Below are positions 621-61,695 of a stretch of 64,000 nt of DNA, piece after piece. The DNA is taken from assembly GCF_037975245.1 (NCBI RefSeq), contig NC_092571.1, positions 13,759,417-13,823,416 of the forward strand, given 5' to 3'. Both the position numbers and the translations under genes were made by a program. The notes under the pieces are model-generated. The model was given only the letters and a program-made list of their open reading frames with translations, did not search any database and was not told where the DNA came from. This DNA is from Apostichopus japonicus. Lineage: Eukaryota > Echinodermata > Holothuroidea > Aspidochirotida > Stichopodidae. Every line of letters starts with the position of its first letter. Within the stretch, counting starts at the first letter, position 1.

Positions 621-859
621 TCTATTAAGCATTTTTTTGTAGTATTCAAAATCATAAGAAGTTTTGTACGGTGGAGTATAAGAATCGCGAGAAACAATTT
701 CCCAAAGTGGCAAGGAAAACGTGGTATAAAAAACAGGTTAAAGGTCAATTTTGACCGAAATTTAAAAAAAAAAATTACATGAAAAGGCCTAGATAAACTA
801 GAGTGCGACTGTCGGAAATTCCGACTGTCGCACTCCAATTTTCCAACTAGCGTCAGTTT

Positions 860-1239
860 TACCATGGCTTGGGGGTGAGACACACCCACACCCCCTCTAA
901 CGACGTCCCTGCGCGGTGAATATGGAACACGATCACATGGTTCAGCCTCTGTTGAGTCATGGTGCTCCGTAGCCTTGTCTTCAAACGCCTCAAAGCACTA
1001 AAAGATCTCTCGGCTTCCGTCGAACTAGCGGAGGAGACGAGGAGCAACCGCAAGAGAGCTTCGACTTCACCAAACATAGCCCGTACCACTGGATTCATCA
1101 ACTTGAATATTTGTCTATACCCTTCAACTGACGACGAATGGAAATGGCCTCGAAATAAAGGCAGACTAAGCTTAAGATTGTTGGAATGCTCAGGGTACCA
1201 ACTCACGAGATCTGGGTGGAATTCTCCATTCAGCAACAT
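860..1239 (-). pseudogene. hAT-family transposase C-terminal fragment
   Basis: A minus-strand frame encodes about 125 residues with the hAT dimerisation motif: a run reading SSASSTEAERSFSALRRLK, then TRLRSTMTQQRLNHV. This pattern (S-x-E-R-x-F-S followed by K-x-x-L-R-x-x-M...RL) is typical of the C-terminal dimerisation region of hAT transposases and of domesticated relatives such as ZMYM1-type proteins. The upstream half (DDE catalytic core, zinc finger) is not visible before the frame begins, and poly-G sequence follows. I read it as a truncated DNA-transposon relic rather than a host gene. The family call is firm; autonomy is excluded by the missing catalytic part. Confidence 0.75.
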
Positions 1240-3230: not shown

Positions 3231-3815
3231 TACCGAACAGCCTTTTGGCTAAGATCATGTGTAGTATATGTGCTTTTTACGTGACCCGTCATACGGGATA
3301 CAAAACGTCACGGCCAAACGGCACTACCAAACCATCCCATTCCTACAAACGAACCTCAGGTCAAGCGAGCCAAAAAAAGTACATACGCTCACCGACCTGC
3401 AGAGACAAAACGCCCAACCCCCCACTGAAATATTAAAAAAAACTACAAAAGGACGACCAGCACGCAGCAAAACAAAACACCCTTCCCCAGCACACCACCG
3501 TCCAAAACAGGGCAGCCCTAGATAAACGGCGAAAATCGCCTTCAACCTGAAGGCGAATGTCAGACTTCACCGCCTCCAGGACTGCCTGCCAACTGGCAAA
3601 TTTCCCCCTAAAAACAACATCACATCTATTCCTCCAAATAAGTGTAGTATATGTTCCCTTTCGAGGGGAATGATGATGCCCACCCGACGACGATCACATT
3701 GTCTCGATGCAAGGAGACTGGGGTTGAGAGCGGAGTAGTCGTTCGTTAGTTTGTTTTTCGTGCCCAGGTTCTTTCCCGGGCGACTTTGTCTTAAAAATTA
3801 TCTATTGACAAACGT
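3231..3815 (+). mobile_element. U2-headed SINE copy, split by a LINE fragment
   Basis: The left part (about 3240-3271) reads 'ccttttggctaagatcatg' and 'gtgtagtatatgt', matching the 5' domain of U2 snRNA including the branch-site recognition GTAGTA. The extreme 5' end (atcgcttctcgg) is missing here. The right part (3642 to about 3815) continues with the family body: 'gatgcaagg', 'ggttgagagcgg', the hairpin 'cccaggttctttcccggg', and a degraded tail 'cttaaaaattat'. A LINE 3' fragment sits between the two parts and duplicates 13 bp of the SINE. The SINE itself interrupts an older LINE. Confidence 0.8.
3272..3641 (-). mobile_element. 5'-truncated LINE 3' fragment inserted in the U2-headed SINE
   Basis: On the minus strand this is the last ~370 bp of the resident Tx1/L1-like LINE, the same sequence as about 44,140-44,509: the end of ORF2, the 3' UTR, a small GC hairpin and the terminus 'acgtaaaaagca'. 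It is bounded by 'gtgtagtatatgt' at 3259-3271 and again at 3642-3654, a 13-bp target-site duplication that lies in the U2-like head. Truncation at the 5' end with an intact 3' end is the usual result of target-primed reverse transcription. Confidence 0.85.
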
Positions 3816-6923: not shown

Positions 6924-7018
6924 TTATGTCACTAAAACCGTGAACGAGATATAAATGAAGGAAAACACCGTTGACCTAGAAAAGCTGGAAGTTGATATCA
7001 AATAATACAGTGTCCTAC

Positions 7019-7814
7019 CTGGATATGTCTTAGGAACTTCCCAAGAACAGCTATCAGAGAAACCTGTGATGGACATGAAGTCTAAGTTTCCCTGGGTGGC
7101 AAAACAGCCGACTGTTGAATTACCACTACACGAGGTAATATAAATCTTTAACACATTATCTTTACCTTCACGGGAATAATGCTTCTTAAAACTACAGTTA
7201 TTTGGTTCAATAAAGTGCAAGTCTACAACTGGATATGCGTCTGGAATGGAACATGCCAGTTCAAATTTAAAGTCATTATTTGGATGTAAAGTAAGATTTT
7301 TCCTTTCACAGAGGAGGGATAAAGGAGGATGATAAATGGTGAACAGACGGTAAGTATGTCGAACGAGAAGTACGTTATAGATATCATCGAACAATGACAC
7401 ATGATAGGTTCCAGCATCTTCTGGTTGGAGGTTTAGGATTGAAAAACCAAAATCATAAAAGTACGATGGATAATCTCGGTGTGAGTATTCTACTTGAAAT
7501 AAATAACGATTGACTGTATGATTATCATCCGACCAGAACAGCCCAGTGTGAGCAAAGGTACGGGTAGATGTATCTCCGGTGTGGGCCATCTCAGTGAAGT
7601 TCAACTCTACTCGAAGTACATATATATATTTATCATATTTATATGAATAGGAAATATCTGGAAAGGCAAAGTCACATCCTACAACCGAATAGCAGTCTGT
7701 CGATTTCCTAGCTGGTCCATCTTGACAATTAAAATCACAATCGGTACACTCGGAAAATGACGTTAACAGGAATACAACAAAGAAGAAAACAGAATTATGT
7801 AAAATCTCCATCAT
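7019..7814 (-). CDS. Type 3 Ig-like receptor, first exon (signal peptide, V-like and C-like domains)
   Basis: The exon encodes about 265 residues and ends in phase 1 at a donor reading cag|gtagg. Residues 1-23 form a hydrophobic signal peptide. The mature N-terminus has a cysteine cluster (C-D-F-N-C-Q-D-G, then D-C-Y and V-G-C-D-F). A V-like domain follows and ends with the F-strand hallmark ILNLQPEDAGTYHVSL, but the usual Y-x-C cysteine is replaced (Y-H-V). There is then a linker (TIYHPPLSLLC) and a second Ig-like domain with cysteines at ACSIP and VGCFAT. Several N-x-S/T sites fit a glycosylated surface or secreted protein. Without splicing, the frame runs on to a stop at 6924 with a hydrophobic tail, which could be an alternative anchored form. 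The ligand is unknown; an immune or allorecognition role is inference only. Confidence 0.78.
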
Positions 7815-9320: not shown

Positions 9321-9537
9321 TTGTGTACTTTAACATTAACAGGGAACTAGCAGTTAGAAAGGTACATTGCTTGTGTCGGTGCGATTTAGTATTTGGAAAT
9401 TGTTCTTAGTCTGAAAATTTTTCTAAGGGGTTGGGGTATATTTATGTTAGGCGATGACTTTAAGAATGGTGAATAGACAATTTTCTCTTTCAAGCATTTG
9501 TGTACACGATTAATAAAATAAATGACAAAAGACTCAC

Positions 9538-10363
9538 CTGAATTACTTTTAGAGATGTTAAAATCACATCTGTCCGAATACTGCGGTGTAGAAAGGAACG
9601 CCAGCGTTTCCTGGGTAGCGATGCATCCAACAGCTGAGTTCTGATCACAAGACGTAACGTAAATAGAAAGCTCTTGAATACCGTTATCATCCGTGTAATG
9701 TTTCTGAAAATCACAGCCGTCGGGCTCAATCATTTCCAGATTTATCGGTGGAAACCCGTTTGTTATTGAACACGATATAGTTACGTGGTAGGAGCCAGAT
9801 GGGGACGAGGAGGGGCCTTGACAAACAAGAGGTGTAGGAGGCTGGTAGACTGTAAAGAGATTATAGGTGTGATGAGAGTAAAGTGTATACGGAGATTTAT
9901 CATCAGTCAATGACAGATGATAAGTACCAGCATCCTGTCGTTGAAGGTTCAAGATAGAGAAAGAGAAATCAACCTTAGTTATGTTACGGAAGTAGTGGGA
10001 TAGATCTTCCTCGATATATTCTACCTTTACTTGAAATGAATATCGATTGACTGTCTGATTCTGTCTGATTTGTATACCGTTGTAGGAGTAAGTTCCTGTA
10101 GAGGGAACTTCTCCATTAGTACGTCCGGTGAAGTTCATCGCTACTCGTAAACCATATATATGTTCATTTATAGATAATCTAATATAATCTTTATTAACAG
10201 CATTATCCGGGAACGAGAAGTCACAGCCTAGCATAGCATAGCATTCCTTTGAATTTACTGCTTGTCCTTCTGTGCAGTGATAATTACAACCGATTACGTT
10301 ACAAGTATATAATACCAAGAAGATGGCAAGATGAAAGAACTTTGAAACAATGAAACCATCCAT
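9538..10363 (-). CDS. Type 1 Ig-like receptor exon, unit 1
   Basis: I start at the ATG of MDGFIVSK because the same start and flank are kept in the other two units; the frame's longer N-terminal extension is not conserved. The exon gives about 275 residues and ends in phase 1 at a consensus donor (cag|gtgag). Layout: signal peptide (about 1-25); a four-cysteine N-terminus (CNYHC, ECY, GCDF); a V-like domain with DAGTYHLSL and no F-strand cysteine; linker TVYQPPTPLVC; a second domain of about 95 residues with cysteines at ISCSI, DGCDF, TSCDQ, VGCIA and RCDF. N-glycosylation sites include NFT, NQT, NIT and NIS. Unspliced, the frame runs on to 9386 with no clear membrane anchor. It is probably the first coding exon of a surface receptor. 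Confidence 0.8.
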
Positions 10364-10472
10364 GTTTAAATAATTAACGACTTTTAAAGTTGTCCAACGT
10401 CGCAGACGTGCATTTGTGCGCACATTTATTTCGAAAACTCTTATGAGAGATAGAAAGTGATCTTTGTTACAA

Positions 10473-10482
10473 TGCGCATGCG
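10473..10482. promoter_or_regulatory. TGCGCATGCG palindrome upstream of type 1, unit 1
   Basis: The motif lies 110 bp upstream of the ATG at 10,363, inside a ~180-bp flank conserved in all three type 1 copies. It is NRF-1-like and probably a promoter element. Confidence 0.45.
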
Positions 10483-11874
10483 TCAATTTGCTTTCAACTG
10501 TGCACGACTGGAAAATATATTTCCGACATGACAACATGCATCCACCAGTGTGCTTCGAATTTTAAACATCGCTTTGCTTTTTCTTAACTTGAGCAGTTAT
10601 ATTAGCTAAGAAGTAGGCTAATGGTTTTTATATAACATTGTTATTAAATGACAAACAAATTTGTTGAAGGCTGAGTGTGAGTGTATGAATCGTTTGCTGT
10701 CCTTTTGTGTTAAGTTAGATATTAATTTAATGCTTATACGTGGCTTTTGAAACAGTACCCTCCAGTAACATCAAATCAAGTTTAGTATGTAACGAATGCC
10801 ATTAATATACTTTCATACTGAGTTAAACCGAGAATGCAACGTGGAGCTTGAAATGAAGCACTGACAGAGCATAAGCATATAGACATTATCTTTATCATTT
10901 TAAAGTGATACATTCATCAAAAATGGAATGACTGTACCTGAATGTGATGCTCTCACGTGAAACGTTGAACAAAACTGAAATCGTGAGCAGCATTATACTT
11001 TAATCTGCTCTGGTGACCTGACATGTGAGTTCCAAATGCGATGCAACAGTGTAGATAACGACACATCATCAATTCGATGGCTAAAATTACATTTTACATA
11101 TGAGGTATTAACAAAAAATCCAGATTTACTATTCTGTTTTTCTTTTTTTGGCTTTATATTTCACATCCAGGAGAATTAATATATTCATGGTACTCGATCA
11201 TTTGCATCGAATTACTTTTAGTGTTACTTTATCACAGTTCAAATACAACAGGCTCGTGGACTCATATGACAGGAAGATTAGTAAAACGCACTTACAAATG
11301 GTGGGACGTTTATTTACCTTCCATTGTTTTCATGGTAGAATCCTTTACCCTTACATATAGAATAATTTATGGAATATAATTAATCACATTGTTCATTGTG
11401 CCGTTATCGGGTAACTTATATGTACTATGCACACCTCGATAACGAGAGCCCAAGCCGGCTTAGAACTCAATTTGTTTTCAAAGAATATGGCAAACTTTGT
11501 CAAAGAACTGAACATCAGTCTCCATTTCGAATGTCCTCTTACCCATGCACCTTAACTAATAACCATCAGTATATAATGGTAGTTCTATAATGTGGAAATA
11601 TATTCAAATTCACTACAGAAAACGAAAAGCAAATCATGTCATCCTTGTTAACGAATAAATAAGGTTTTTTTTATTAAACTTTTTATTATTTCGCGAACAG
11701 CTAATCACTTGGATATTTCAGTCCGTTTTGTTTCAATCAGAGTAACTTCTTACATCAATGCATGTAAAGAATTTTAAAATTTACAGTAACGTTTTGCCAG
11801 ATGTTTCAATGGTTTTGGTTACTCCGAACATATGTCTCTAACACTCAACGGCGTTTAGTCATACATAAATGGTA
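10483..11874. other. Noncoding DNA between type 1 and type 2, unit 1
   Basis: Repeated at 31.53-32.81 kb and, with more gaps, at 61.8-62.75 kb. The text 'tgaaacagtaccctccagta' recurs in all three with small changes. Frames at 11,148-11,360 and 11,396-11,590 are not kept open in full in the other copies, so no gene is called. Confidence 0.5.
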
Positions 11875-13072
11875 AATTAATCGTTTTGTTTCGCCCATCT
11901 TGTGGTACCCTGGCGCGGGGTATCCAATTCCGCGTCGCGTCCTGGTGCGGTTGGAGAGAGCGATATTTTCATTTATTTGGTCGGGTGGTACAGAGCTTGT
12001 CAAAAGGGCGGTAATGTACCAAAAACTGGAGAAGGGTGGGTTAGAGGTGGTTCATCTGGGAAGTAAATTGACCTTTTTGTTATTTAAGCAGTTGTTTGTA
12101 GCGGTAACTGACCCAGGGTTGCCTTGTTCATATTTTGTACGTTTTTGGGGCGGTTTGCACCTGCGTCGATGGGTCCCGGCGCTGTTTAGCAACAGAGAAC
12201 CGCATAGTAGTACTCCAAACAGGGTGGTGCGTGTCATCTGCTCCGCTCTGATTGAGTTGCCCCCTGTTGACCTGTCACAGCCGGCCCTCGTTCACAGTTC
12301 GTTGCGGAATAAGGCCTTGAATGCAACTTTTGTCCAGGGACGTCATTCTGCCGAAGTATGGCGTTCGGTGCATTCAAGGCTGAATGGTTGCAGGTTCCGT
12401 GATCTCGCATGGAGAGTTGCACACGGTGCCTTGGTGACCAACCTAAAAAGATATCATTGGCGATTGGGTGATGGACTGTGCCCTAGGACCGGCTGTGACA
12501 GCTTAGAGAGTACTGCTCATGTTTTTTTGGCATTGTTGCTTTGTAGTAAACTTATGGGAGTGGTTCCAGACCTGGACCGACCGTGTTACGGGAGACCGTT
12601 CATGGTCGGTTGGGCAGGGCTTTGTTTTATATGGGGTAGACCCTCCAGTTTGTTCGGTTGCTGTGTTGCACCGCATAATTTTTGTTTGCTCTATTGTAAA
12701 AAAAACATGTTTGGCGGAATAGATGTAATTTGGTTTTTAGGCGGAAATTTGCCAGTTGGCAGGCAGTCCTGGAGGCGGTGAAGTGTGACATTCGCCTTCA
12801 AATTGAAGGCGATTTTCGCCGTTTATCTGAGGCTGCCTTTTTTGGACGCTGGTGTGCTGGGGAGGGGTTTTTCGTTTCGCTGCGTGCGGGTCGTCCTTTT
12901 GTAGGTTTTTGAATGTTTGAGTGGGGGGTTGGGCGTTTTGTCTCTGCAGGTCGGCGGGCGTATGTTTTTTTGGCTCGCTAGACCTAAGTTTCGTTTGTCA
13001 GAATGGGATGGTTCGGTAGTACCGTTTGGCCGTGACGTCTTGTATCCCGCATGGCGGGTGACGTAAAAAGCA
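11875..13072 (+). mobile_element. 5'-truncated Tx1/L1-like LINE, end of ORF2
   Basis: This carries the C-terminal part of LINE ORF2 downstream of the reverse-transcriptase core (IFSFIWSGGTELVKR, LHLRRWVPALF) and the 3' UTR with terminus 'gacgtaaaaagca'. It is nearly the same as 43,311-44,509 but has one extra T in a poly-T near 12,530 that breaks the frame. Unit 2 keeps the empty site at 32,812-32,834 ('cataaatgggtatgag'). Here the flanks read 'aaatggta' and 'aaataggta', an imperfect target-site duplication. The insert lies about 40 bp past the donor of the type 2 exon, so it is antisense in its intron. Confidence 0.85.
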
Positions 13073-13113
13073 CAAAAATAGGTATGAGTAGATAAATGTT
13101 AGACAGAGCTTAC

Positions 13114-13582
13114 CAAATAGACGGTATGTGTGTTGCAATACAGTCGGGCCGGCAGTCCAGTCCCTGTTTGTAGACTTTATGTCAACTTGATAAGTTCCAG
13201 CATCGTCTAGTTGGATATTTAGGATTGAGAAATTAAAGTTACAAATGCAATCCCGATAGTCACAATAAAGGTATTCACATTGAAAAAGATAACGATCATA
13301 AGTATGATCCTCATAATCCCAGAACATTCCAGAGTAAAGAAAGGGAGCTCGAGGAACAGCATCATCGGTAGCTAGCTCGGTGAAGTTCAAATCTAATCTA
13401 AGTATATATATATATGAAAATGAAATATTTGGAAACGTTAAGTCACAGCCTACAACCACATAACAGTCTGTTGAATTTACTGTAGGGCCATCTTGACAGT
13501 GATAATCACAATCAATATCTTCGGAAAATGAATAATTGATCAGAAAAATGAAGAAACAATGTAAAACAGGTACAAATCCCAT
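13114..13582 (-). CDS. Type 2 Ig-like receptor exon (signal peptide plus one V-like domain), unit 1
   Basis: The exon encodes 156 residues from the ATG of MGFVPVLH and ends in phase 1 at a donor ttg|gtaag straight after the V-like domain (HTYRLFG). Residues 1-20 or so are a signal peptide. The N-terminal cysteines follow the family pattern (CDYHCQDG, DCY, GCDLTF). The domain ends with ILNIQLDDAGTYQVDI, again lacking the F-strand cysteine. This copy has extra cysteines before it (QCEYLYC, DCIC). Unlike types 1 and 3 there is no second domain in the exon, so one must come from a later exon or be absent. A young LINE sits just inside the following intron. Promoter flank and start are conserved in the other two units. 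Confidence 0.78.
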
Positions 13583-18240: not shown

Positions 18241-20108
18241 GACGTTGCTTCATATGGGTGTAATTCAATTTTTCATAAAAAGCAGTATCATTCTACCAAA
18301 TCGTCTGACTGTTGGTCAGTCGAGGGCGCTGTAACAAATCTCTGTTGAAATTAAACACCTTTCCACTCTCGGCCTGTATTGGCATGGTGTACGCTATCGA
18401 TCGTTGAGGATCCAATATTAAATAAGGCGCGGATGTCCCTAGCCTCTATGGGCTTATGAGTGGGGTGTTGGGGTACAAGCTTCGTTTGGTTCGTCTTCAT
18501 CCTCTGGCACGGTCATCCTTCTGGCACCTTCTTCTGGCACCTTCAGGCGGGTTGTGCCACTAGGGTGGAGTCCGATTGGTTTGCATTATTTTCAAGTATA
18601 CACAGGGTAATATCTGCCTTTGTAATATGTAAACTCTCAATCGGTCTTCTGCTAGACGAGATGTTTATCGACACACTGCCTTCATTTGTGTCATGGTCGG
18701 AGACTTTCAAACTGTGTCCTAGACTCGGGTCTTGACAGACTCGGGGCTTCTGTGTCTGCTGGTCCTGCTGCTGGGATTGCAAAACTCGACAGATTTCCCT
18801 CGGAAAAACTTTTAGCCGATGTTTGGAGGCATATGAGCGCCCGGGATACATTCCACGAAGTCATCATTGCATACCGTTATTACTCGTAGTATTCAACATA
18901 TTAGATTTATGAGTAATATATTTTGTTAATTTATTGTTGACTCAAAGCACTTTTTGGTCTCTTTTATCCAGGATTGTGTCGTATGTATTTTATTCATTCT
19001 GACCAAAGTCATTCGTATAGAGTTAGTTAATTTAATATGTGAAAGAAAAAGGTAACATTTATTACATTATGATTTTTGCCCTCTTTGAATAAAAAATAAT
19101 AATAATAAAAAGCCATCTTGAAATAGTTTAGTGGTGATATTTGAGGTGTATTATCCAATACGTTCTGCAGGTTGTCCAAGTTTATTGAATCGATATGATC
19201 GAGGTATATGGAACAAAAGTTCGACCATGTTGGTTGCCTAGTGCTCTTTTCTAATAATTCAATAACAAAGTGGAATGATCCAACAACTCCGTGGAGTACA
19301 TGCCGTGCTAAACAATGGGGGCGAGAAGCAAACACCTGCCCCTTCACAATTTATAGAAGGAAATATATCTCTTCCTCCCATGCACCCCAACCCCTCCCAC
19401 CACACCCCGAAACGTTATTGCTTCTTTAAACGCCTGCTATGTCAATGGGATCCGATAAAATTCTGTGTATATTTTAAATAGCCTGAAGTCGAGGTTTCCT
19501 AAATGAAAAATAATTCATTACGAATCAGTAATGAATTTGTGACGCAGTTTAATACATGGCTGTGACAGGACACCATGTGATGACTGCAAAAAAGCATTAA
19601 GAGAACGTCAAAGTGCACAACGTAGTTGCAATAGCTGTCATTTATTTTTATCAATAAAATACAATTAATTAACAATTAAACTAGTAACCATGCTCATAAG
19701 CATTTAGTTTCAGATGGCGCTGTACCACTATATAACAAGAGGAAGTTATAGAATTCTAACTGCATATTTCATTAGGTGATAAGAGTAGATAGAGTATGTG
19801 TTATTAAATGTTCTTGTTCCTTTCAAGTAGGAGATCGATTGTTATGAGTATATATTACAGAGGACAATATCTCGGGTGGAATGTCTTTATCTGCCTCTCT
19901 TATATATATCATCCAGCAATTGGTATTGGAATGATCTTGAACACCTGATCACCTTTCATTGACAGTCATCTGTCGCAATATCCTGTAATTGCGAATCAAA
20001 CAACAATGAAAACCAATACTATAGTTACGGTGGTTCTGATGGAACAGACGAGTTGCAGACTTACTGCACAACAACTGATCACGTTGGGATTCTTCGTCAA
20101 AATGCCAA
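18241..20108. other. Duplicated noncoding DNA; empty site for a unit 2 insertion
   Basis: The match is about 37.99-40.42 kb. The single copy of 'ggatccaatat' at 18,408-18,418 is the empty site of the LINE fragment at 38,153. The place matching the SINE at 38,721 is near 18,690 and lacks it. A block at 18,841-18,985 ('cattattactcg' region) recurs at 39.08 and at 58.04 kb. No gene is seen. Confidence 0.5.
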
Positions 20109-20118
20109 TGCATAGAAT

Positions 20119-20318
20119 CGCTTCTCGGCCCTTTGGCTAAGATCATGTGTAGTATCTGTTCCCTTTCGAGGGGTATGGTGATACACACCCGACGATGATC
20201 ACACAGTCACAATCTCGATGCAAGGGGACTGGGGTTGGGAGCGGATCAGTCGTTCGGTAGTTCGGTAGTGTGGTTTTCGTGCCCACGTTCTTTCCTGGGT
20301 GACTTTTCTTAAAAAGTA
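20119..20318 (+). mobile_element. U2-headed SINE, full-length copy
   Basis: It begins 'cgcttctcggccctttggct' and continues with 'aagatcatgtgtagtatctg', a near match to U2 snRNA nucleotides 3-44, including the branch-site recognition GTAGTA. After that it leaves U2: the Sm site and stem-loops III and IV of U2 are absent. The body includes 'gatgatcacacagtcacaat', 'gatgcaaggggactgg' and a 3' hairpin, and it ends in 'cttaaaaagta'. The flanks 'tgcatagaat' at 20,109-20,118 and 20,319-20,328 form a 10-bp target-site duplication. The same insertion is present in copy B. Confidence 0.88.
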
Positions 20319-20519
20319 TGCATAGAATAGCTTGTCAACTAGGCAAACATATAATAATTTGTCGAGGTGTGTACAATTCGCCTGTATCGAGAAGAATATG
20401 GTTTGGTATCGATGATTGTTCAATTTAACAACTCATTGTAAGATTGCTTGGTGGTGAATGAAATGGCGTAGCCTGCAGTAAAATAACAACCAGTTATAAT
20501 CAGTTTGTCGGCTTGTCGA

Positions 20520-28044: not shown

Positions 28045-28643
28045 ATGTCTTTGGAACTTCCCTAGCACAACTATTAGAGTAACTGGTGATGGACATGAAG
28101 TCCAAGTGTCCCTGAGTAGCGACAAAGCCAACTGTTGAATTACCACTACACGAGGTAATATAAGTTTTAAACACATTAAATGTTACCTTTAAGTGAATAA
28201 TAGTGTTTCTCAAATTTCCCTCATTTCAATAACAAGCAACTGGATATATTTGTCTGGTCTGGAACATGTCAGTTCAAAGTAAAAGTTATTATTCTGAAGT
28301 AAAGTAAGAGTTTTCATGTCACAGAGGAGAGGTGAAAGAGGATGATAAATTGTAAACATACGGTAAGTATGCTGTAGGAGAGTAGCATGTATAATATTAT
28401 GATCATAATCGACCAATGGCACTTGATACGTTCCAGCATCTTCTGGTTGGAAGTTTAGAACTGTAAAACTAAAATCATAAAAGCGCGATGAATAATTTTC
28501 AAGTGTGTAATTAAAACAAATATTGATTGACTTTATGCTCACCATTTGACCATAACAGCTCAGTTTCAGCAAAAGTACGGGTAGATGTCACTCCGATGTG
28601 GGCCATCTCAGTGAAGTTCAACTGAAATCGAAGTATATATATA

Positions 28644-28879: not shown

Positions 28880-30577
28880 TTGTAAAGATATCTGATCTTT
28901 AACAATGATTATCCTGTACGTTACCGCTGTCTAAATCTGCAGTGTCGTCTTTAACAATGTTTACGCTGTGCTTTAAAGCGACCGCCGACTAACTTTGCAG
29001 TGAAGTCTTCTTTCGATAGAAACCAATAGTAGACAGAAGGTATTCTAGAAGAGGTTAAGGATTGTGCGCATGCACGGAAGTGTTAACACAGGAAAATAAA
29101 ATACTTTGGTCACAGTATTCAGTGAAATAATATAAGTATTTCTCAATTCCTGTTAATCTGCCTTCGGAGTGTTGATTGTAGAAGGCAAAGAACCAATGAT
29201 TATTTTTCTCGCTTATCCTTTCAATGCTCAGCTTACCATTTGTTACTCTCAGAGAATGGATGATGATAAATCTCTTTCATAGTTTCCATTTGCAAACCAT
29301 ATGACTATATGACAGTAATGTGTTTATATACAGGTAAATATAAACTAAACGCTGGTTATGCGAAATAATCCTCTGACACTGTACAAAGCTTTTGCACCCG
29401 GTGCTTGGCTAAGTAACTTTTAAATGTTAAAGAATCGAAATCTCATTGATATTTCAATGAAATACTGCGTGAAATCTTAAAAAATGAAACGAAAATCGCC
29501 TTCAATCTGAAAAGCGAATGTCACACTGACAAGGTTGTGCAGAGATGTCGGTGGTTTTCTTAAAAAACAAACGGACGTGAACTGAATATGACAGAATGTT
29601 TCACATAGTGAACGTAGGGCAAGCAATGTCGCTTATTCCACTATTTAAATCTACCATGAGCCCACACTACATCTTCACCCATTCGGCATACACCAAAACG
29701 GTAACAACAGTCCACTTTTAATTACAAAAATATGCTGCCTCAACTAGGTCACCACACAAAGGTTATAAGTATTTCCTTATATTTGTCCTAATATCTGTCC
29801 TTATATTTGTCCTAATACTTGTCATTTAGCCTTTGAAGAAGATCCTGCTAGAATCGAATGTCAGGCCAACTTACTTTTACACCTTCTCCCACACAGGCTC
29901 TCTAGTGGATAAACAGTTTGCCAGCAGTTTTATTTTATTCTAATATTTAATTCATACTATTTTAGGCTCTAAGGTCAAAATCTTATGTCAATCATGCAAT
30001 TGTGCCGTCTTCCATGGTTATAACTATCATATATTCTAATGTAGCTATACCGCCCCTGCGTGCAGGTCTCCGTTTCTTAAAATTTAAGACTATTAAACAA
30101 CATAACAAGGCTTCTTTTTATCACTGTACTTATCAATAAATATCACTTGAAGAAAGTTCACAAGTTAGCGTTGAACGTTTCAAAGAAGAACCTGGCAATG
30201 ACAGGACAGGAATATCAGGAGGCGCCTGTAAAATGGAGCTTGGGATCAAAAACAAGAAGTCCCTTAACCATACCCACCAGCCCACCGACTTCGGAGCAAC
30301 GTGTGCAAGGAAACACTGAGCTTAAAGTCATTTTGGATTAAAATTGGATACTTCAACATTAACGGGGAATAAGCAGTTAGAAAGGTAAAAGCTTCTGTTG
30401 GTATGATTTAGTATTCAGAAATTGGTCTTGGATAGTTTGTTAAATTTGAACGATTCTTTTCTTCTTGGGGTGGGGATATATTTATATGTTAAGCGATGGC
30501 TATACAAATGAATAGACACTTTTTTCTTTCATATCATTTGCGCACACGGTTGATAATAAAAATGACAAGAAACTCAC
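28880..30577. other. Noncoding DNA between type 3 and type 1, unit 2
   Basis: The left part shares the type 3 upstream flank. A small LINE 3' scrap is visible at about 29,490-29,535 ('cgaaaatcgccttcaatctg'). The part from 29,600 to 30,420 matches 60.06-60.72 kb, and from 30,030 also 9.07-9.40 kb. No gene is called. Confidence 0.5.
29065..29074. promoter_or_regulatory. TGCGCATGCA motif upstream of the type 3 pseudogene
   Basis: Lies 186 bp upstream of the pseudogene start, in a flank similar to 7.87-7.96 kb ('aaaccaatagtagacag' and 'tattctagaagag'). A relic promoter is likely. Confidence 0.35.
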
Positions 30578-31412
30578 CTGGATTACTTTTAGAGATGTTA
30601 AACTCACATCGGCCAGAATACTGCGATGTAGAAAAGAACTCCAGCTGTTCCTGAGTAGCGATGCATCCAACGATTGAGTTCTGATCACAAGACATGACGT
30701 TAATAGAAAGCTCTTGAATACCGTTATCATCTGTGTAATGTTTCTGAAAATCACAGCCGTCGGGCTCAATCATTTCCAGATTTATCGGTGGAAACCCGTT
30801 TGATATTGAACAACATATAGTTACGTGGTAAGAGCCAGATGGGGATGAGGAGGGGCCTTGACAAACAAGAGGTGTAGGAGGTTGGTAGACTGTAAAGATA
30901 TGATAGGTGTAATGAGAGTAAAGAGTATACGGGGAGTAAGAATCAGCCAATGACAGATGATAAGTACCAGCATCCTCTCGTTGAAGGTTTAAGATGGAGA
31001 AAGAAAAATCAACCTTAGTAACTTCAGGTCGGTAGTGGGATAGATCTTCCTCGATATATTCTATTTTTACTTCAAATAAATATCGATTGACTGTCTGATT
31101 CTGTCTGATTTGTATGGCATTGAATGAGTAAGTTCCTTTAGAGGGAACGTCTCCATTAGTACGTCCGGTAAAGTTCATCGCTACTCGTAAACCATATATG
31201 TATACATCTATTTCATGTATAGATAATATAATATGATCTTTATTAACAGCAATATCCGAGAACGAGAGGTCACAGCCTAGCATAGCATAGCATTCCTTTG
31301 AATTTACTGTTCGTCCTTCTGTGCAGTGATAGTTACAACCGATAACATTACAAGTATATAATACCAGGAAAATGGCAAGATGAAACAACTTTGAACCAAT
31401 GTAACCATCCAT
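30578..31412 (-). CDS. Type 1 Ig-like receptor exon, unit 2
   Basis: Intact, 278 codons, from MDGYIGSKLFHL to a phase-1 donor (cag|gtgag). It has a signal peptide; N-terminal cysteines CNYHCTEG, ECY and GCDLSF; a V-like domain ending LQREDAGTYHLSL without the F-strand cysteine; linker TVYQPPTPLVC; and a second domain with ISNGFPPINLEMIEPDGCDF, SCDQNS and VGCIATQE. Compared with unit 1 it is three codons longer, in the Tyr/Ile-rich loop (EIDVYIYGLRV versus EHIYGLRV). Without splicing, translation would stop 14 codons later after a short hydrophobic run (FLVIFII), which could give a membrane-tethered form, though the donor is strong. Probably functional. Confidence 0.8.
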
Positions 31413-31531: not shown

Positions 31532-32857
31532 TTAATTTGCTTTCAACTGTGCATGACTGGAAAATATATTTCCGACATGACAACATGCATGTACGAGTGT
31601 GTTTCGAAATTTAAACCTCGCTTTGTTTTTCTATTTAATTTGATTAGTTATATTAGCTAAGAAGTAGGCTAATGATTTTAATATAACATTGTTATTTAAT
31701 GAAAAAATATATTTTTAAGGGTGTTCGTATGAATCGTTTGTTGTCCTTGTTTGTGTTCTTGCTATTTATTTAATGCTTAAATTCGGCTTTTGAAACAGTA
31801 CCCTCCGGTTACGTCAAAACAAGTTTTAGTATGTAAAGAATGTCATTACTATACTTTCATACTGAGTTAGACCGAGTAAAACAGAGAATACAACGTGGAG
31901 CTTGAAATGAAGCATTGACAGAACATAAGCATATATACATTATCTTCATCATTGTAAAGTGATACATTCTTCAAAAACGGAATGACTGTACCTGAAAGTG
32001 ATGACGCTCTCACGTGAAAATTTAACAAAACTGAATTCGTGAGCATTCTACTTTCAACTGCTCTGGTGACCTGACGAGTGAATTCAAAATGTGATGCAAC
32101 AGTGTAGATAAGAACTTATTAGCAATTGAAGGCTAAAATAACATCTTCCATATGAGGTATTGAGGTATATATGAGGTAACAAAAAAATCCGGATTTACTA
32201 TTCTGTTTTTTCTTTTGTTGGTTTTATATTTCACATCCAGGTAAATTAATATATTCATGGTACTCGATCATCCGCATCAAATTATTTTTAGTGTTACTTT
32301 ATCACAGTTTAAATACAACAGGCTCGTGGACTCATATGGTAGGAAGATTAGTAAAACGCACTTACAAATGGTGAGACCTTTATTTACCTTCCATTGCTTT
32401 TTTGGTAGAATCTTCGTTTTCAAAGAATATTTCAAAATTTGGCAAAGAACTGAATATCAGTCTCCATTTTGAATGTCCCCTTACCAACCTTACCTAATAA
32501 CCATCCGTTTATAATGGTAGTTCTATAATGTGGAAATATATTCAAATTCACTTCAGAAAACGAAAAGACACATGATGCCATCCTTGCTAACGAATAAAGT
32601 TTTCTTTTGTATTACTTTTTATTAAACTTTTTTATTATTTCTCGAACAGCTAATCACTTGGATATTTCAGTCCGTTTTTTTCTTGTTCAATCAAAATAAC
32701 TTTTTCATCAATGCATGTAAAGAATTTTTAAATTTACAGTAACGTTTTGCCAGATGTTTATATGGTTTTGGTTACTCTGAGCATATGTCTCTAACACTCG
32801 ACGGCTTTTAGTCATACATAAATGGGTATGAGTAGATAAATGTTAGACAGAGCTTAC
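31532..32857. other. Noncoding DNA between type 1 and type 2, unit 2
   Basis: Matches 10.48-11.87 kb. It contains the empty site (32,812-32,834) for the LINE present in unit 1. No gene is recognised. Confidence 0.5.
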
Positions 32858-33335
32858 CAAATAGACGGTATGTGTGTTGCAATACAGTCGGGCCGACAGT
32901 CCAGTCGCTGTTTGTAGACTTTATGTCAACTTGATAAGTTCCAGCATCGTCTAGTTGGATATTTAGGATTGAGAAATTAAAGGTAAAAAAGCAATCCTCA
33001 TGGTCACAATAAAGGTATTCAACTTGGAATAGAAAACGATCATAAGTATGATCCTCATAATACCGGAACATTCCAGAGTAAAGAAAGGGAGTTGGAAGAA
33101 CATCATCATCGGTAGCCAGTTCGGTGAAGTTCAAATCTAAATATATATATATAGATGAAAATGAATATGAAAATGAAATTTTTGGAAACTTTAAGTCACA
33201 GCCTACAACCACATAACAGTCTGTTGAATTTACTGTAGGTCCATCTTGACAGTGATAATCACAATCAATATCTTCGGAAAATGAAAAAGTGATCAGAAAA
33301 ATGAGAAAATAATGTATCACAGGTACAAATCCCAT
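32858..33335 (-). CDS. Type 2 Ig-like receptor exon, unit 2
   Basis: Intact, 159 codons, from MGFVPVIHYF to a phase-1 donor ttg|gtaag. It encodes a signal peptide, the family N-terminus (CDYHCQDG, DCY, GCDLKF) and one V-like domain ending LNIQLDDAGTYQVDI then HTYRLFG. Relative to unit 1 the loop after the B strand is longer and made of Ser/Tyr/Phe/Ile (SFSYSFSSIYIYLDL), encoded by repetitive 'atgaaaatgaatatgaaaat' and TA-rich text. It also lacks two of the extra cysteines of the unit 1 copy. No LINE follows the donor here. A second domain and membrane anchor must come from further exons. Confidence 0.78.
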
Positions 33336-38432: not shown

Positions 38433-38720
38433 GGATACAATATTAAATAAGGCGCGGATGTCCCTAGCCTCTATGGGCTTATGAGTGGGGTGTTGGGCTA
38501 CAAGCTTCGTTTGGTTCGTCTTCATCCTGTGGCACGGTCATCCTTCTGGCACCTTCTTCTGGCACCTTCAGGCGGGTTGTGCCCCTAGGGTGGAGTCCGA
38601 TTGGTTTGCATTATTTTCAAGTATACACAGGGTAATATCTGCCTTTGTAATATGTATACTCTCAATCGGTCTTCTGCTAGACGAGATGTTTATCGACACA
38701 CTGCCTTCATTTGTTCCTGG

Positions 38721-38908
38721 TACTTTTTAAGAAAAAGTCACCCAGGAAAGAACCTGGGCACGAAAACCAAACTACCAAACGACTGATTCGCTCTCTGCCC
38801 CAATCCCCTTGCATCGGGACTGTGACTGTGTGATCATCGTCAGGTGTGTATCACCATTCCCGAAGGGAACAGATACTACACATGATCTTAGCCAAAAGGC
38901 CGAGAAGC
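38721..38908 (-). mobile_element. U2-headed SINE, specific to copy B
   Basis: A full-length minus-strand copy: U2-like head at the right ('gccaaaaggccgagaagc' as read on the plus strand), hairpin and 'tactttttaag' terminus at the left. It is bounded by 'cctggta' (38,716-38,722 and 38,909-38,915). The matching place in copy A, near 18,690, has neither the SINE nor about 18 bp of flank. Confidence 0.85.
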
Positions 38909-38930
38909 CTGGTAGTGCACCATGTGTCAT

Positions 38931-40426: not shown

Positions 40427-41779
40427 CGCTTCTCGGCCTGTTGGCTAAGATCATGTGTAGTATATTTTCCCTTTCGATGGGAATGGTGATACACACCCGA
40501 CGATGATCACACAGTCACAATATCATATCATTTCATTTCATTTATTTCTTCACAACATTATTTACATATTTATATAACATATATACAAGAAAATAGCATT
40601 GGTACAGAAAATTTACAATCATATAAATATAAGGAAAAAATTAGAATGAATAATATTGTGAAAGGAAGTGTTGTACAAAAAATCTGGAGGGCTTAACAGG
40701 GTACAACACTCCCCGATACAAATAATGATATATAATTAATATATATACTCCTCTCCCTTATCCCACACTCTGCACCCCTTCCCCACCATCCTTACCCACA
40801 CCCCACCTTAATACAATTCTGATGCATTTTGTATTTACCGAGAAAGTACTTCTTAAGATGTTTCTTTAAGCTAGACAGGGTAAGAAAAGTTCTATCGTTT
40901 AAATGCAAAGAATTCCAAATATTAACTGATCGATTTCTTAAGCTCTTTTGGACATTGTTAGTATAGCAAGGAAAAGCGTGAAAGTCATTGCGTTGTCGGG
41001 TATTGTATTTGTGAATCTGACTGTTTTGTGTAAAAAAAAGGTATTAAATTTATTAGGCAAGTTACTGTTACTACATCTAAAATATACGAGACAATACTTA
41101 GGTTAATGAGGTCTGGTAATTTTAATAAAGTAAGCGATGCAAAGAGGGGACTAGTGTGGTAAAAATAAGCTCAAGTAGATAGAACGTAAAATATTTCTAG
41201 GCAAGAAGTGTTTGAGCTTAGATAAGATTCCAGCACACTTTGCAAGAGATGAAGAGATAGCATTAATGTGATCACGCCAGGATAATTTGGAGTCTATGAA
41301 GACTCCCCAAAAAACGTATTTTATCAGTACAAATGATAGGTTTATTGTTTAGGCAAATGCGAAAATTGAAATCATCTCTAGGTTTACCAAAAATCATGTA
41401 ATTCGTCTTGTCAATATTTAAGGATAATTTATTTGCATTAAACCAATTATTAAATTTATTAAGTTCCTCGCATATATTATATTATAACCTTTTCGGATCA
41501 TTATCAGAGAAAAAAATGTTTGTATCATCAGCAAATAAAACAAGGGAAGAATTAGTAGAAACCTTACTTATATCATTTATATACAAAATAAATAATAAAG
41601 GGCCAAGGATTGAATCTTGTGGTACTCCACACTTAATACATAACTGTGTTGAGCTTACACCGTTAATAAGTACTAAATATCGATGCAAGGGGACTGGGGT
41701 TGAGAGCGCATCAGTCGTTCGGTAGTTTGGTTTTCGTGCCCAGGTTCTTTCCTGGGTGACGACTGTTCTTAAAAAAGTA
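40427..41779 (+). mobile_element. U2-headed SINE, split by a second LINE family
   Basis: Paralogue of the 20,119 copy, at the same insertion site (flanks 'tgcatataat' at 40,417-40,426 and 'tgtatataat' at 41,780-41,789). The head and first body part run to about 40,524; the rest, starting 'cgatgcaaggggactggggt', resumes at 41,681. The text between is a CR1/L2/Jockey-like LINE fragment on the other strand. Confidence 0.85.
40525..41675 (-). mobile_element. CR1/L2/Jockey-like LINE fragment inside the SINE
   Basis: On the minus strand the first ~190 bp (41,482-41,675) encode reverse-transcriptase blocks: GVPQDSILGPLLF with YINDI, then LFADDTNIF, the FADD catalytic motif. The consensus GVPQG has D in place of G. 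The rest is eroded C-terminal ORF2 and a 3' end with the short-repeat tail 'gaaatgaaatgatatgatat', characteristic of CR1/L2/Jockey-group elements rather than L1. Flanking 'aatatc' (40,519-40,524 and 41,676-41,681) is a 6-bp duplication. Copy A (20.2 kb) has the uninterrupted SINE. Confidence 0.8.
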
Positions 41780-42245: not shown

Positions 42246-42808
42246 GTAAAGTTACAACCAATAACAATTGGTTCCGAACCACTTGGAGTACCATATTACG
42301 TAAATACCCCCTAAATGAGAATATCAGGATATAGGTCGGGAGGCTTGGCCTAATATGAGTTGAAATAATTCTGACAAGTCGTTCATGATGATTACATTTT
42401 TGATATCTTGCGATGTTTCTAATATCTGAAAGCTATTAGTCTGGTCCCCTTATTATGTACATAAGATGATATACTATAGTAGTTAATTTTTTTCTGGCTC
42501 GCTGTAGCGTGGTTTGTACTGCCGTAGGTGATATAGGTAGGGTGGACTCGGCGAGGTCATTTCTGCATTCAAAGAATAATCATTTCTTCTTATTTATTTT
42601 TTTATTCTCCTCTACATGTTTCCTTTCTCAGCAGCCCTAGTCACCTCAATCAATTTGCATATTATTTGATGTACCCAGCATAATTTTATTCATTTATTTG
42701 TATCAATATTCATGTTCTCTCTCTTGGGTAAGTTGTCTTCGTACCTTCCACCCCTTCTTCTACTCAGTTCCGACGCTGGCGAGGGGGGAGGTCAACGCTG
42801 CATATCCA

Positions 42809-44509
42809 GTTCTGTTATCGTAAATGGGTTTTGTTCGGAGGTTTTTAACGTAGAGAGGGGGGTGCGCCAGGGGTGCCCTCTGTCTCCATTACTTTATGTT
42901 TTGTTTAGCGAGTCCCTCTCTCGTCTTTTGGAAGGGACTCCAAACTTGTTCCATTCGTTGTGCCAGGGGGTGCCAAAGTGAAATGCGCTCAATATGCAGA
43001 TGACGTGACATGTATTGTTTCGAGTCTCGGCTCCTTTCGCGCACTCTCGCAGGATCTATCTATTTTTGAGAGAGCTACCGGGGCCAAGTTGAATCCAGAA
43101 AAGACAAAGGGCCTTCGTCTTGGTTGCTGGAGATACAGAGACTTACCATTCGGTGCGTCGTGGTCGGATCAGAATATCAAAATTAATGGTATATGGTTCG
43201 GCTACGATGCACCTTGTGATGTCACCTGGAACGAGAGGGCTGAGGTATTTCAGAGCAGACTCGAAACCTTTGGCACCCGCTGGCTTTCGATCTTGGGGAA
43301 AGTCACTGTTATTAATCGTTTCGTTTCGCCCATCTTGTGGTACCCGGGCGCGGTGTACCCTATTCCGCGTCGCGTCCTGGTACGGTTGGAGAGGGCGATT
43401 TTTTCATTCATATGGTCTGGTGGTACAGAGCTTGTCAAGAGGGCGGTATTGTACCAAAAACTAGAGAAGGGGGGACTAGGGGTGGTTCATCTGGGAAGTA
43501 AATTGACCTTTTTGTTATTTAAGCAGTTGTTTGTAGCGGTAACTGACCCAGGGTTGCCTTGTTCATATTTTGTACGTTTTTGGGGCGGTTTGCACCTGCG
43601 TCGATGGGTCCCGGCGCTGTTTAGCAACAGAGAACCGCATAGTAGTACTCCAAACAGGGTGGTGCGTGTCATCTGCTCCGCTCTGATTGAGTTGCCCCCT
43701 GTTGACCTGTCACAGCCGGCCCTCGTTCACAGTTCGTTGAGGAATAGGGCCTTGAATGCAATTTTTGTCCAGGGACGTCATTCTGCCGAAGTATGGCGTT
43801 CGGTGCATTCAAGGCTGAATGGTTGCAGGCTCCGTGATCTTGCATGGAGAGTTGCACACGGTGCCTTGGTGACCAACCTAAAAAGATATCATTGGCGATT
43901 GGGTGATGGACTGTGCCCTAGGACCGGCTGTGACAGCTTACAGAGTACTGCTCATGTTTTTTGGCATTGTTACTTTGTAGTCAACTTATGGGAGTGGTTC
44001 CAGACCTGGACCGACCGTGTTACGGGAGACCGTTCATGGTCGGTAGGGCAGGGCTTTATTTTATATGGGGTAGACCCTCCAGTTTGTTCGGTAGCTGTGT
44101 TGCACCGCATCATTTTTGTTTGCTCTATTGTAAAAAAACATGTTTGGCGGAATAGATGTAATTTGGTTTTTAGGGGGAAATTTGCCAGTTGGCAGGCAGT
44201 CCTGGAGGCGGTGAAGTCTGACATTCGCCTTCAGATTGAAGGCGATTTTCGCCGTTTATCTGGGGCTGCCTTTTTTGGACGCTGGTGTGCTGGGGAGGGG
44301 TTTTTCGTTTCGCTGCGTGCGGGTCGTCCTTCTGTACGTTTTTGAATGTTTGAGTGGGGGGGGGGGATGGGCGTTTTGTCTCTGCAGGTCGGCGGGCGTA
44401 TGTTTTTTTGGCTCGCTAGACCTTAGTTTCGTTTGTTAGAATGGGATGGTTCGGTAGTGTCGTTTGGCCGTGACGTTTTGTATTCCGCATGGCGGGTCAC
44501 GTAAAAAGC
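42809..44509 (+). mobile_element. Tx1/L1-like LINE, 5'-truncated in reverse transcriptase, with 14-bp TSD
   Basis: This is the longest LINE in the window (1.7 kb). It starts inside the reverse-transcriptase domain (VERGVRQGCPLSPLLYVLF). A frameshift near 42,970 leads into a long open frame to 44,345 with the catalytic YADDV motif, the thumb region and a C-terminal domain (FSFIWSGG, WRVAHGALVTNLKRYHWRLG, then a C-x-x-x-C...H-x-F-W-H-C zinc-knuckle-like ending near TAHVFWHC). The 3' UTR has a small hairpin and ends 'cacgtaaaaagc'. 'acgctgcatatcca' is present at 42,795-42,808 and 44,510-44,523, and once in copy A (21,470-21,483). It is a recent insertion, inactive because truncated. Confidence 0.92.
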
Positions 44510-44523
44510 ACGCTGCATATCCA

Positions 44524-52148: not shown

Positions 52149-52159
52149 CCGCATAAGGG

Positions 52160-52532
52160 TACTTTTTAAGAAAAAGTCGCTCAGGAAAGAAAACCAAACT
52201 ACCGAACGACTGATCCGCTCTCAACCCCAATCCCCTCGCTTCTCGGCCTTTTGGCTAAGATCATGTGTAGTATCTGTTCTCTTAGGGAATGGTGATACAC
52301 ACCTGACGATGATCACACAGTCACAGTCCCGATGCAAGGGGACTGGGGCTGAAAGCGGATCAGTCGTTTGGTAGTTTGGTTTTCGTGCCCAGGTTCTTTC
52401 CTGGGTGACTTTTTCTTAAAAAGTATCCCCTTGCATCGGGACTGTGACTGTGTGATCATCGTCGGGTGTGCATCACCATTCCCCTCGAAAGGGAACCGAA
52501 ACCAAACTACACATGATCTTGGCCAAAAGGCC
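52160..52532 (-). mobile_element. U2-headed SINE, minus copy, interrupted by a plus copy
   Basis: The two ends of one minus-strand SINE lie at 52,160-52,236 (3' half) and 52,425-52,532 (5' half with the U2-like head 'cttggccaaaaggcc'). Together they give almost the whole element, flanked by 'ccgcataagggta' (52,149-52,161 and 52,531-52,543), a 13-bp target-site duplication. Confidence 0.82.
52237..52424 (+). mobile_element. U2-headed SINE, plus copy inserted in the minus copy
   Basis: A complete copy from 'cgcttctcggccttttggct' to 'ttcttaaaaagt', with the cleanest U2 head in the window. 'atcccct' at 52,230-52,236 and 52,425-52,431 is a 7-bp duplication of host-SINE sequence. The body lacks part of the 'cctttcgagggg' hairpin. 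Confidence 0.85.
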
Positions 52533-52853
52533 GCATAAGGGTATAACTTTTCTAAAGCATTTGGCAGCCAGTGTGAAACTCACAATGTCATAAACTTTAT
52601 GATAGACTGAAAATATATGCATTCACATGTTCGGAAAGATAATTCGTCAATCATAGCATAATCATGAAAATTATTCTGGATAATGAACGCCAAAATACAT
52701 AAAATAGTATTAATCATCTATTCCTGTTAATAAGTGATACATATACACAAGGCATACTTTGAATGAACTTATATGTAGTTATCATAGTGTCATAGTATCA
52801 ATCTTAGTGGAACTATTTTTTACTGTAGATGTATAACGTATAACTGTGCTTAC

Positions 52854-60869: not shown

Positions 60870-61695
60870 CTGGATTACTTTTAGAGATGTTAAATTCACA
60901 TCTGTCCGAATACTGCGGTGTAGAAATGGACGCCATCGTTTCCTGTATAGCGATGCATCCAACAGTTGATTTCTCATCACAAGACGTAATGCCAACAGAA
61001 AGCTCTTGAATACCGTTTTCATCCGTGTAATGTTTCTGAAAATCACAACCTTCGGGCTCAAGCATTTCCAGATTTATCGGTGGAAACGCGTTTGATATTG
61101 AACAGGATATAGTTACGTGGTAGGAGCCAGATGGGGATGAGGAGGGGCCTTGACAAACAAGAGGTGTAGAAGGCTGGTAGACTGTAAAGAGATGATAGGT
61201 GTGATGAGAGTAAAGAGTATACGGGGAGTCAGCATCAGTCAATGACAGATGATAAGTACCAGCGTCCTCTCGTTGAAGGTTTAAGATGGAGAACGAAAAA
61301 TCAACCTTAGTAATTTTCGGCCGGTAGTTGGACCGCTCTTCCTCGATATAGTCTACTTTTTCTTGAAATAAATATCGATTGACTGTCTGATTCGGTCTTA
61401 TTTGTATACCGTTGTAGGAGTAAGTCCCTTTAGAGGGAACGCCTTCATTAGTACGTCCGGTAAAGTTCATCACTACTCGTAAACCATATAAATTTACATA
61501 TATTTCATTTATATATAATTTTATATGATCTCTATTAACAGCAATATCCGGGAACGAGAAGTCACAGCCTAGCATAGCGTAGCATTCCTTTGAATTTACT
61601 GTTTTTCCTTCTGTGCAGCGATAGTTACAACCGATTACGTTACAAGCATATAATACCAGGAGATGCAAGAACTTTGAAACAATGAAACCATCCAT
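60870..61695 (-). CDS. Type 1 Ig-like receptor exon, unit 3
   Basis: Intact, 275 codons, from MDGFIVSKFLHLLVL, a signal peptide two residues shorter than in units 1 and 2. It has the N-terminal cysteines CNYRCTEG, ECY and GCDFSF; the variable loop EIYVNLYGLRV; a V-like domain ending LQREDAGTYHLSL without the F-strand cysteine; and a second domain with ISNAFPPINLEMLEPEGCDF, TSCDEKS, VGCIAIQE and RCEF. The phase-1 donor is gtattt here rather than gtgagt as in the other units, a weaker site, so intron retention may be more common. Read-through continues to 60,643 with a hydrophobic start (FFVILLTVY) and then polar text. Probably functional. Confidence 0.78.

Follow-up and report, generated by a model that had tools for sequence, protein, structure and literature searches.

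The stretch of DNA analyzed here, referred to as the window, comprises 64 kb (C11:13759417-13823416) of a 671.6-Mb genome of 35 contigs (G000) and harbors six copies of a short retroposon that opens with the 5' part of U2 snRNA (Table 1). The first-pass annotation had listed at least six such copies at 3.2, 20.1, 38.7, 40.4 and, twice, 52.2 kb, and a BLAST search of the window with positions 20119-20318 as the query recovered every one of them. As separate insertions they are fewer, since the 20.1- and 40.4-kb copies share their flanks, which belong to a local duplication, and hence go back to one insertion event. Close relatives of the 20.1-kb copy, in the same context, occur across C11:13.27-14.6 Mb.

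Three of the six copies reached the Rfam gathering score for U2, with matches covering U2 nt 1 to ~45. This agrees with the ~44-nt U2 head described initially, except that the start of the head is lost in the 3.2-kb copy and in the minus-strand 52.2-kb copy, the latter being interrupted by the plus-strand copy. In the 20.1-kb copy, U2 nt 1-45 correspond to 20117-20161, the AT at 20117-20118 being common to the target-site duplication (TSD) and the head. The head carries a host-specific U2 variant, ATCATGTG, which is also present in the U2 genes of the host; human U2 reads ATCAAGTG at this position. TSDs of 7-13 bp flank four window copies; none was visible by inspection at the 3.2-kb copy. The window is locally SINE-rich: twenty 5-kb samples, 100 kb in total, yielded 0 copies at E 1e-3 or better, and the genome average, derived from a body 21-mer count (see below), is ~1 per 300 kb. 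A duplicate at 18.69 kb was considered as the empty site of the 38.7-kb copy and dropped; it misses 17 further bases too.

Besides, the window contains a minus-strand cluster of tandemly duplicated secreted proteins, and copies of the SINE and of LINEs travel along in its ~20-kb repeat units. Scanning two of these proteins returned one sub-threshold match to the immunoglobulin V-set. As to the host, it had been supposed to be an invertebrate, and indeed COX1 of the 16-kb contig C35 makes sense under no other code than the echinoderm/flatworm mitochondrial one. A starfish was considered and dropped, as the mitochondrial gene order, ND1-tRNA-ND2-16S-COX1 on a single strand (ND1 and ND2 identified by eye), is compatible with a sea urchin or a sea cucumber. 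Another contig (C29, 31 kb) bears COX1 matches in fragments on its minus strand, perhaps reflecting a broken mitochondrial dimer or a nuclear insert.

Table 1. Features of the 64-kb window (window coordinates)
Feature	Position	Strand	Remarks
hAT transposase C-terminal dimerisation fragment	859-1239	-	
SINE copy, head part (3.2 kb)	3240..3271	+	BLAST; start of head gone
5'-truncated LINE 3' fragment	3272-3641	- (antisense)	within the U2-derived head of the 3.2-kb SINE
TSD of this LINE fragment	3259-3271 / 3642-3654		GTGTAGTATATGT
SINE copy, body and 3' end (3.2 kb)	3642..3800	+	BLAST
Tandemly duplicated secreted proteins	6924-7814, 9386-10537, 12998-13582, 28210-28572, 30534-31412, 32808-33335, 60643-61695, 62748-63302	-	
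Intact U2-headed SINE copy (20.1 kb)	20119..20317 (BLAST match 20119-20318)	+	3' end ...TTAAAAAGT
TSD of 20.1-kb copy	5' 20108-20118, 3' 20318-20328		ATGCATAGAAT
SINE copy, young short-hairpin type (38.7 kb)	38722..38908 (BLAST 38908-38721)	-	BLAST, TSD
TSD of 38.7-kb copy	38716-38722 / 38908-38914		CCTGGTA (plus-strand letters)
SINE copy, 5' part (40.4 kb)	40427..40524	+	BLAST; flanks as 20.1-kb copy
Insertion splitting the 40.4-kb SINE	40525-41675		1,151 bp; opens with TCATTT repeats
SINE copy, 3' part (40.4 kb)	41676..41775	+	BLAST
LINE fragment (RT end and zf-RVT)	42802..44511	+	36% identity over 454 aa to U2-array LINE
Older SINE copy, 3' part (52.2 kb)	52161..52236 (BLAST 52242-52160)	-	
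SINE copy, young type (52.2 kb)	52237..52424 (BLAST 52237-52425)	+	nested within the minus-strand copy
TSD of plus-strand 52.2-kb copy	52230-52236 / 52425-52431		ATCCCCT
Older SINE copy, 5' part (52.2 kb)	52425..52533 (BLAST 52533-52426)	-	head 5'-truncated
Outer TSD of minus-strand 52.2-kb copy	52149-52161 / 52531-52543		

The family across the genome

A 21-mer from the SINE body matched at least 2,259 places in the genome at up to 2 mismatches (1,168 and 1,091 on the two strands), as opposed to 0 for the reversed 21-mer, so the family is more than a chance assembly of matches. We fetched 79 copies, namely the 20 best matches to the window copy and 59 exact matches of the body 21-mer on C1-C3, which together form a non-random sample. 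With L097 left out for want of a 3' end, TSDs were detected in 39 of 78 copies at a score reached by 0.13% of shuffled pairs. The 37 TSDs measured (L076, a simple repeat, and repeated flanks excluded) span 9-22 bp, with a mean of 13.8. Family-wide, too, is the fixed 3' terminus noticed in the window: copies end in ...TTAAAAAGT^A (also written ...CTTAAAAAGT; terminal sequence GACTTTTTCTTAAAAAGTA) and lack poly(A). At the 5' side, 23 of the 39 copies with TSDs start at U2 nt ~1-6 and 11 further in, while four have filler ahead of the head and one is headless. The head ends at U2 nt 45 in most copies and at nt 50 in L105 and L121. Thirty-nine full-length copies diverge by 1.6-7.3% from their consensus. 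A comparison of the head with the U2 genes of the host had been proposed at the outset; in the young consensus, U2 nt 1-45 proved identical to the host's own U2, host variant included.

Two peculiar sets of copies deserve mention. Six 5'-truncated SINEs (L088, L090, L128-L131) have host flanks and truncation point in common, and seem to have been amplified inside another repeat. In L037, L051 and L179, an additional U2 5' piece precedes the normal head; such double heads could stem from either a template jump or an insertion into an existing head.

Might the element be a functional U2-like snRNA variant, or a set of its pseudogenes? The Rfam alignment shows the head folded into U2 stem I, and the 192-nt consensus is more stable (-72.6 kcal/mol, z -3.1) than shuffled sequences, of which 2 of 200 are equally stable. 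However, the similarity to U2 stops at ~nt 45, short of the full-length U2 structure, no Sm-like site was found in the SINE, and diverged copies occupy 2,259 places, which together render this reading scarcely credible. It likewise disposes of the initial caveat that the element could be a genuine snRNA of few copies, Rfam matching the head only. Nor does another RNA fit the head better, as had also been considered: in a permissive Rfam scan of three genomic copies, U2 was the sole match above its family cut-off.

An ordinary Pol III SINE of the SINEU kind, with an internal promoter and a head taken from U2 by chance, would account for the high copy number, the TSDs and the 5' truncations, and the head contains TGGCTAAGATC, which is one mismatch away from an A box. 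Yet this box is at chance level, given that 362 of 500 shuffles reach 1 mismatch and 44 reach 0, and the best B box has 2 mismatches, with 255 of 500 shuffles doing better. In addition, Pol III should already terminate at a T5 run situated 11 nt ahead of the conserved 3' end. ARAGORN found no tRNA in three copies. We thus consider this explanation very unlikely. The label "SINE" given at first sight, which we retain for convenience, consequently applies only loosely, as A and B boxes no better than those of shuffles leave the element without a recognizable Pol III promoter; strictly speaking, it is perhaps not a SINE. Nor was a LINE source of the body found: when compared with the array-LINE pieces described below and with the window LINE, the body gave no match better than E 0.1, and contains no convincing LINE-derived part.

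SINE and LINE insertions in the U2 gene array

The genuine U2 genes of the host are arranged in tandem on C16, with a unit length of 645 bp, and four copies lie on C15. Exact U2 nt 39-64 are present in 87 copies; 60 of these are continuous with exact nt 29-38, and in the other 27, which are confined to C16, this part is cut or changed. Twenty-two of the 27 interrupted places were read, and contained a SINE in six and a LINE-type element in 16 cases. Besides, the pattern AAGTA (the element end) followed by U2 from nt 39 onward occurs at 21 places, all within the C16 array, of which six are SINE and 15 LINE-type 3' ends. A pattern for U2 genes split by an element with a terminal base other than A matched 0 places, which is explained, in hindsight, by these elements ending in A. 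At least about one in four U2 3' halves of the array hence stems from an interrupted gene, which may strain the supply of this splicing RNA.

The SINE junctions in the array are those of L017/L018 (one copy), L145, L146, L147, L136 and L137. In L018, L145 and L146, a full-length SINE sits precisely at U2 nt 38/39, with U2 resuming at nt 39. The U2 sequence upstream of these three is identical to the normal unit over the 300, 73 and 73 nt, respectively, that were available for comparison, and identity downstream of L018 was checked over 155 nt. As full-length SINEs reside inside U2 at nt 38/39 and the upstream part is unchanged, the head corresponds to the 5' part of the target gene. L147 and L136, on the other hand, are headless, 5'-truncated SINEs between duplicated U2 nt 39-53 and 39-50/53, respectively, implying that the body inserts without a head of its own. 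Judged by these junctions, then, the body inserts at U2 nt 38/39 through a process that leaves TSDs and keeps the upstream U2 intact. L137 contains a tandem pair of SINEs at a distance of 153 nt. The array copies, among which are the hairpin variants CCCTTAGGG and CCCCTCGGG, are 0.5-1.6% different from their closest dispersed relatives. The full-length array copies could share one insertion that was copied by unequal exchange.

LINEs predicted to encode suitable enzymes occupy the same U2 site. One of them (L133) was read through: it is ~5 kb long and bounded by U2 nt 30 and nt 38/39, with an ORF1 of 409 codons that contains CCHC knuckles and an ORF2 of 1,141 aa that combines an APE endonuclease (PF03372, 3.5e-20), an RT (PF00078, 9.7e-34) and a zf-RVT domain, and whose closest solved relatives are LINE-1 ORF2 chains. 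L133 may be described as an APE-type LINE with two ORFs that is Keno-like by insertion site and predicted endonuclease, and which we take to be Tx1-like. Coding relatives of its ORF2 were recognized in array pieces of type A (L012 and L019, 28%) and type B (L020, 25%), and L020 additionally holds a nearly identical, truncated copy of the L133 ORF2 (98%). Three type-C ends were termed LINE solely because of their common last 16 nt. The shared LINE end, ACTTGAAAGAAAAGTA, occurs at 17 places, 15 of them on C16:30.89-31.16 Mb, and LINE ends of types A-C therefore look strictly array-bound. Three LINE 5' junctions leave U2 at nt 50, 50 and 45 (L013 and two in L020), where the SINE head ends. A 3' tail common to the SINE and the U2 LINEs is unsupported, for they have only the last ~7 nt in common and score no better than shuffles.

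Origin of the head and candidate partners

Outside the U2 genes, the SINE retains part of this target preference. The pre-insertion sites of the 37 distinct insertions have A first in 33, T next in 21 and a pyrimidine next in 31 cases. In a larger set of 71 copies (seven with shared host flanks left out), the base after the SINE 3' end is A in 64; given this A, both the following T (40/64) and the following C (28/64) are well over background, T is found at the fourth place in 28/64 (p 0.035) and G at the fifth is depleted (3/64). The preference fits U2 nt 38-41 (ATCT), but not nt 42 (G), and past four bases no similarity to U2 was detected at the off-target sites of 67 copies (11 left out). 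Two pairs of copies, L047/L122 and L107/L116, occupy the same site of two host repeats, and as the two TSDs of any one copy have the same letters but those of different copies do not, they look like independent hits on one site. The U2 promoter (200 nt) had no match in the 5' flanks of 78 dispersed copies.

Which LINE spreads the SINE? Since the LINE ends of types A-C look bound to the array (15/17 on C16) but dispersed SINE copies number in the thousands, a second LINE may do so, and this counts against the U2-site explanation developed below. The LINE fragment in the window appears, from its translated sequence, to be a relative of the U2-array LINE and is a candidate partner. Its family has 529 dispersed 3' ends, and a division of labor, with a U2-specific LINE occasionally placing the SINE in U2 and a window-type LINE spreading it, can be envisaged. 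The SINE tail matches the window LINE tail better than 1000/1000 dinucleotide shuffles in three window sizes, and a target A is the starting point of both elements. Once the last 8 bases are fixed, however, 26-78 of 1000 shuffles match as well (922-974 beaten), and local alignment of the tails is unremarkable, with 193/2000 shuffles as good. Moreover, AC follows the window LINE in 19/20 places, whereas T comes next in 40 of the 64 SINE sites with an initial A. The window LINE, favored at first as SINE partner, is thus opposed by its AC target, and we hold a two-partner arrangement to be possible but rather doubtful; in any case, it alters the partner and not the origin of the head. No window-type LINE was seen in U2 among the matches listed (100 of the 529 places). 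Within these first 100, the 3' ends crowd at C11:13.1-14.2 Mb and C7:16.4-17.1 Mb.

Another route to the head would be a single template jump, in which an RT copying LINE or SINE RNA switched once onto U2 snRNA, with the insertions into U2 genes being secondary and guided by homology to the head. For R2, jumps of this kind onto U12 snRNA and tRNA have been reported (PMC3414825), and the double heads of L037, L051 and L179 as well as the filler between TSD and head in L101 and L102 are compatible with jumping. Still, the headless L147 and L136 lie at nt 38/39 with U2-site TSDs, and so the head is not what guides the body. Besides, a random jump does not predict that the head ends where the site LINEs leave U2 (nt 45-50). 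We regard this origin as unlikely.

Most likely, the SINE has a U2 head because its parent copies sit within U2 genes, behind the U2 promoter and at the site used by U2-targeting elements. Such a copy would be transcribed from U2 +1, giving an RNA whose 5' end is U2 nt 1 to ~45-50. Reverse transcription would be primed on the nicked target and begin at the fixed RNA 3' end (...UUAAAAAGU[A]), the protein presumably being supplied by a U2-specific APE LINE. Re-insertion into U2 would rebuild promoter, head and body, while off-target insertion, where only A-T-C/T pairs, would generate promoterless dispersed copies that retain the head. Transcription from the U2 promoter and the role of the array copies as sources are inferred. 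Taken as a whole, a SINE resident in U2 genes, with the 5' half of the target gene as its head and the machinery of U2-site LINEs behind it, strikes us as a probable explanation, and our verdict is that of a U2-gene-targeted, SINE-like element. The early reading as an snRNA-headed SINE family consequently stands insofar as we are dealing with a dispersed, TSD-flanked, U2-headed retroposon, yet its head is the 5' part of a target gene rather than a SINEU-style derivation.

The usual explanation for a SINE head is that 7SL, tRNA or 5S RNA brings along an internal Pol III promoter. The U2 promoter, however, is external, and this makes the U2 head of a SINE a puzzle. A stricter proposal, promoter capture, would confine active copies to the U2 array, where they use an snRNA promoter (Pol II), and turn their promoterless offspring into landing pads; we find ourselves evenly divided on it. 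If true, it would explain how an snRNA without an internal promoter can become a SINE head, SINEU included. Kojima reportedly described SINEU in 2015 as crocodilian SINEs with U1/U2 snRNA-derived heads, and the details are said to involve Tx1-Mar and a Mariner target. The present family resembles SINEU in being made up of dispersed short retroposons with TSDs and a U2-derived 5' head, but differs in its echinoderm host, presumably its body and the copies seen inside U2 genes behind the U2 promoter. SnRNA-headed SINEs such as those of crocodilians are an accepted class (PMC5753468, PMC8010984).

With regard to the insertion site, one report introduces Keno and Utopia as non-LTR retrotransposons that target U2 snRNA genes and have a 3' flank starting at nt 39, with an APE endonuclease in Keno, and states that weakly specific U2-targeting families also insert at short U2-like sites (PMC4640811). 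The insertion point of the SINE is that of these elements, and the array LINE L133 has APE and RT like the Keno of this source; in contrast, the SINE is non-coding, ~190 nt long and far from strictly U2-specific, with at least 2,259 places versus six read in the array. A further parallel is provided by the R2 and R2/R1 SIDEs, non-autonomous elements in Drosophila 28S genes that rely on co-transcription with the target gene and retain LINE ends on both sides, 5' and 3', along with a self-cleaving ribozyme by which the RNA of the target gene is removed (PMC3414825). By position, our SINE is alike in lying in the target gene, and transcription unit, of a site-specific LINE. Unlike the SIDEs as portrayed there, it keeps target-gene RNA as its head, has thousands of dispersed places and lacks LINE-derived ends; no Rfam family but U2, and hence no ribozyme, was found in L133, L145, L146, L147 and L179. 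A literature search, which covered mostly titles and had the original SINEU description outside its scope, retrieved neither a U2-gene-resident SINE nor this family. As one assembly displays the source gene, the insertion site, site-specific LINEs and dispersed offspring, the question of snRNA heads becomes testable. Should transcription be confirmed, the element would represent a third kind of small retroposon, neither a Pol III SINE nor a ribozyme-released SIDE, but a passenger of an snRNA gene that keeps part of this gene.

SINE heads as insertion sites

Each head includes the U2 site and could therefore serve as a landing pad for further SINEs. The SINE end followed by TCTGTTC occurs at 20 exact places, seven in the array and 13 outside, all of the latter having been read. 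Eight of these 13 are SINEs joined to a second SINE at U2 nt 39 (L095, L170, L171, L172, L175, L176, L177, L178), one is a SINE within a U2 copy on C20 (L179), three are SINEs before other DNA (L174 as well as L180 and L181, which are duplicates of one locus) and one is without a SINE (L173). Of six SINE-SINE joints compared, three have units with a similarity of 78-88% and three have units with one of 97-100%. Accordingly, some joints are young insertions into old heads, most clearly so in L175, and others may be retrocopies of tandem transcripts, because L095 and L182 are without the outer head that insertion into a standing copy would leave. At one mismatch, 13 further places were obtained, and the eight that were read comprise five SINEs before other U2-like DNA (L183, L184, L185, L186, L188), the SINE-SINE joint L182 and two places without a SINE (L187, L189). 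In four of these eight, TSDs could be discerned by eye, e.g. ATCTGTTTTTAG in L185.
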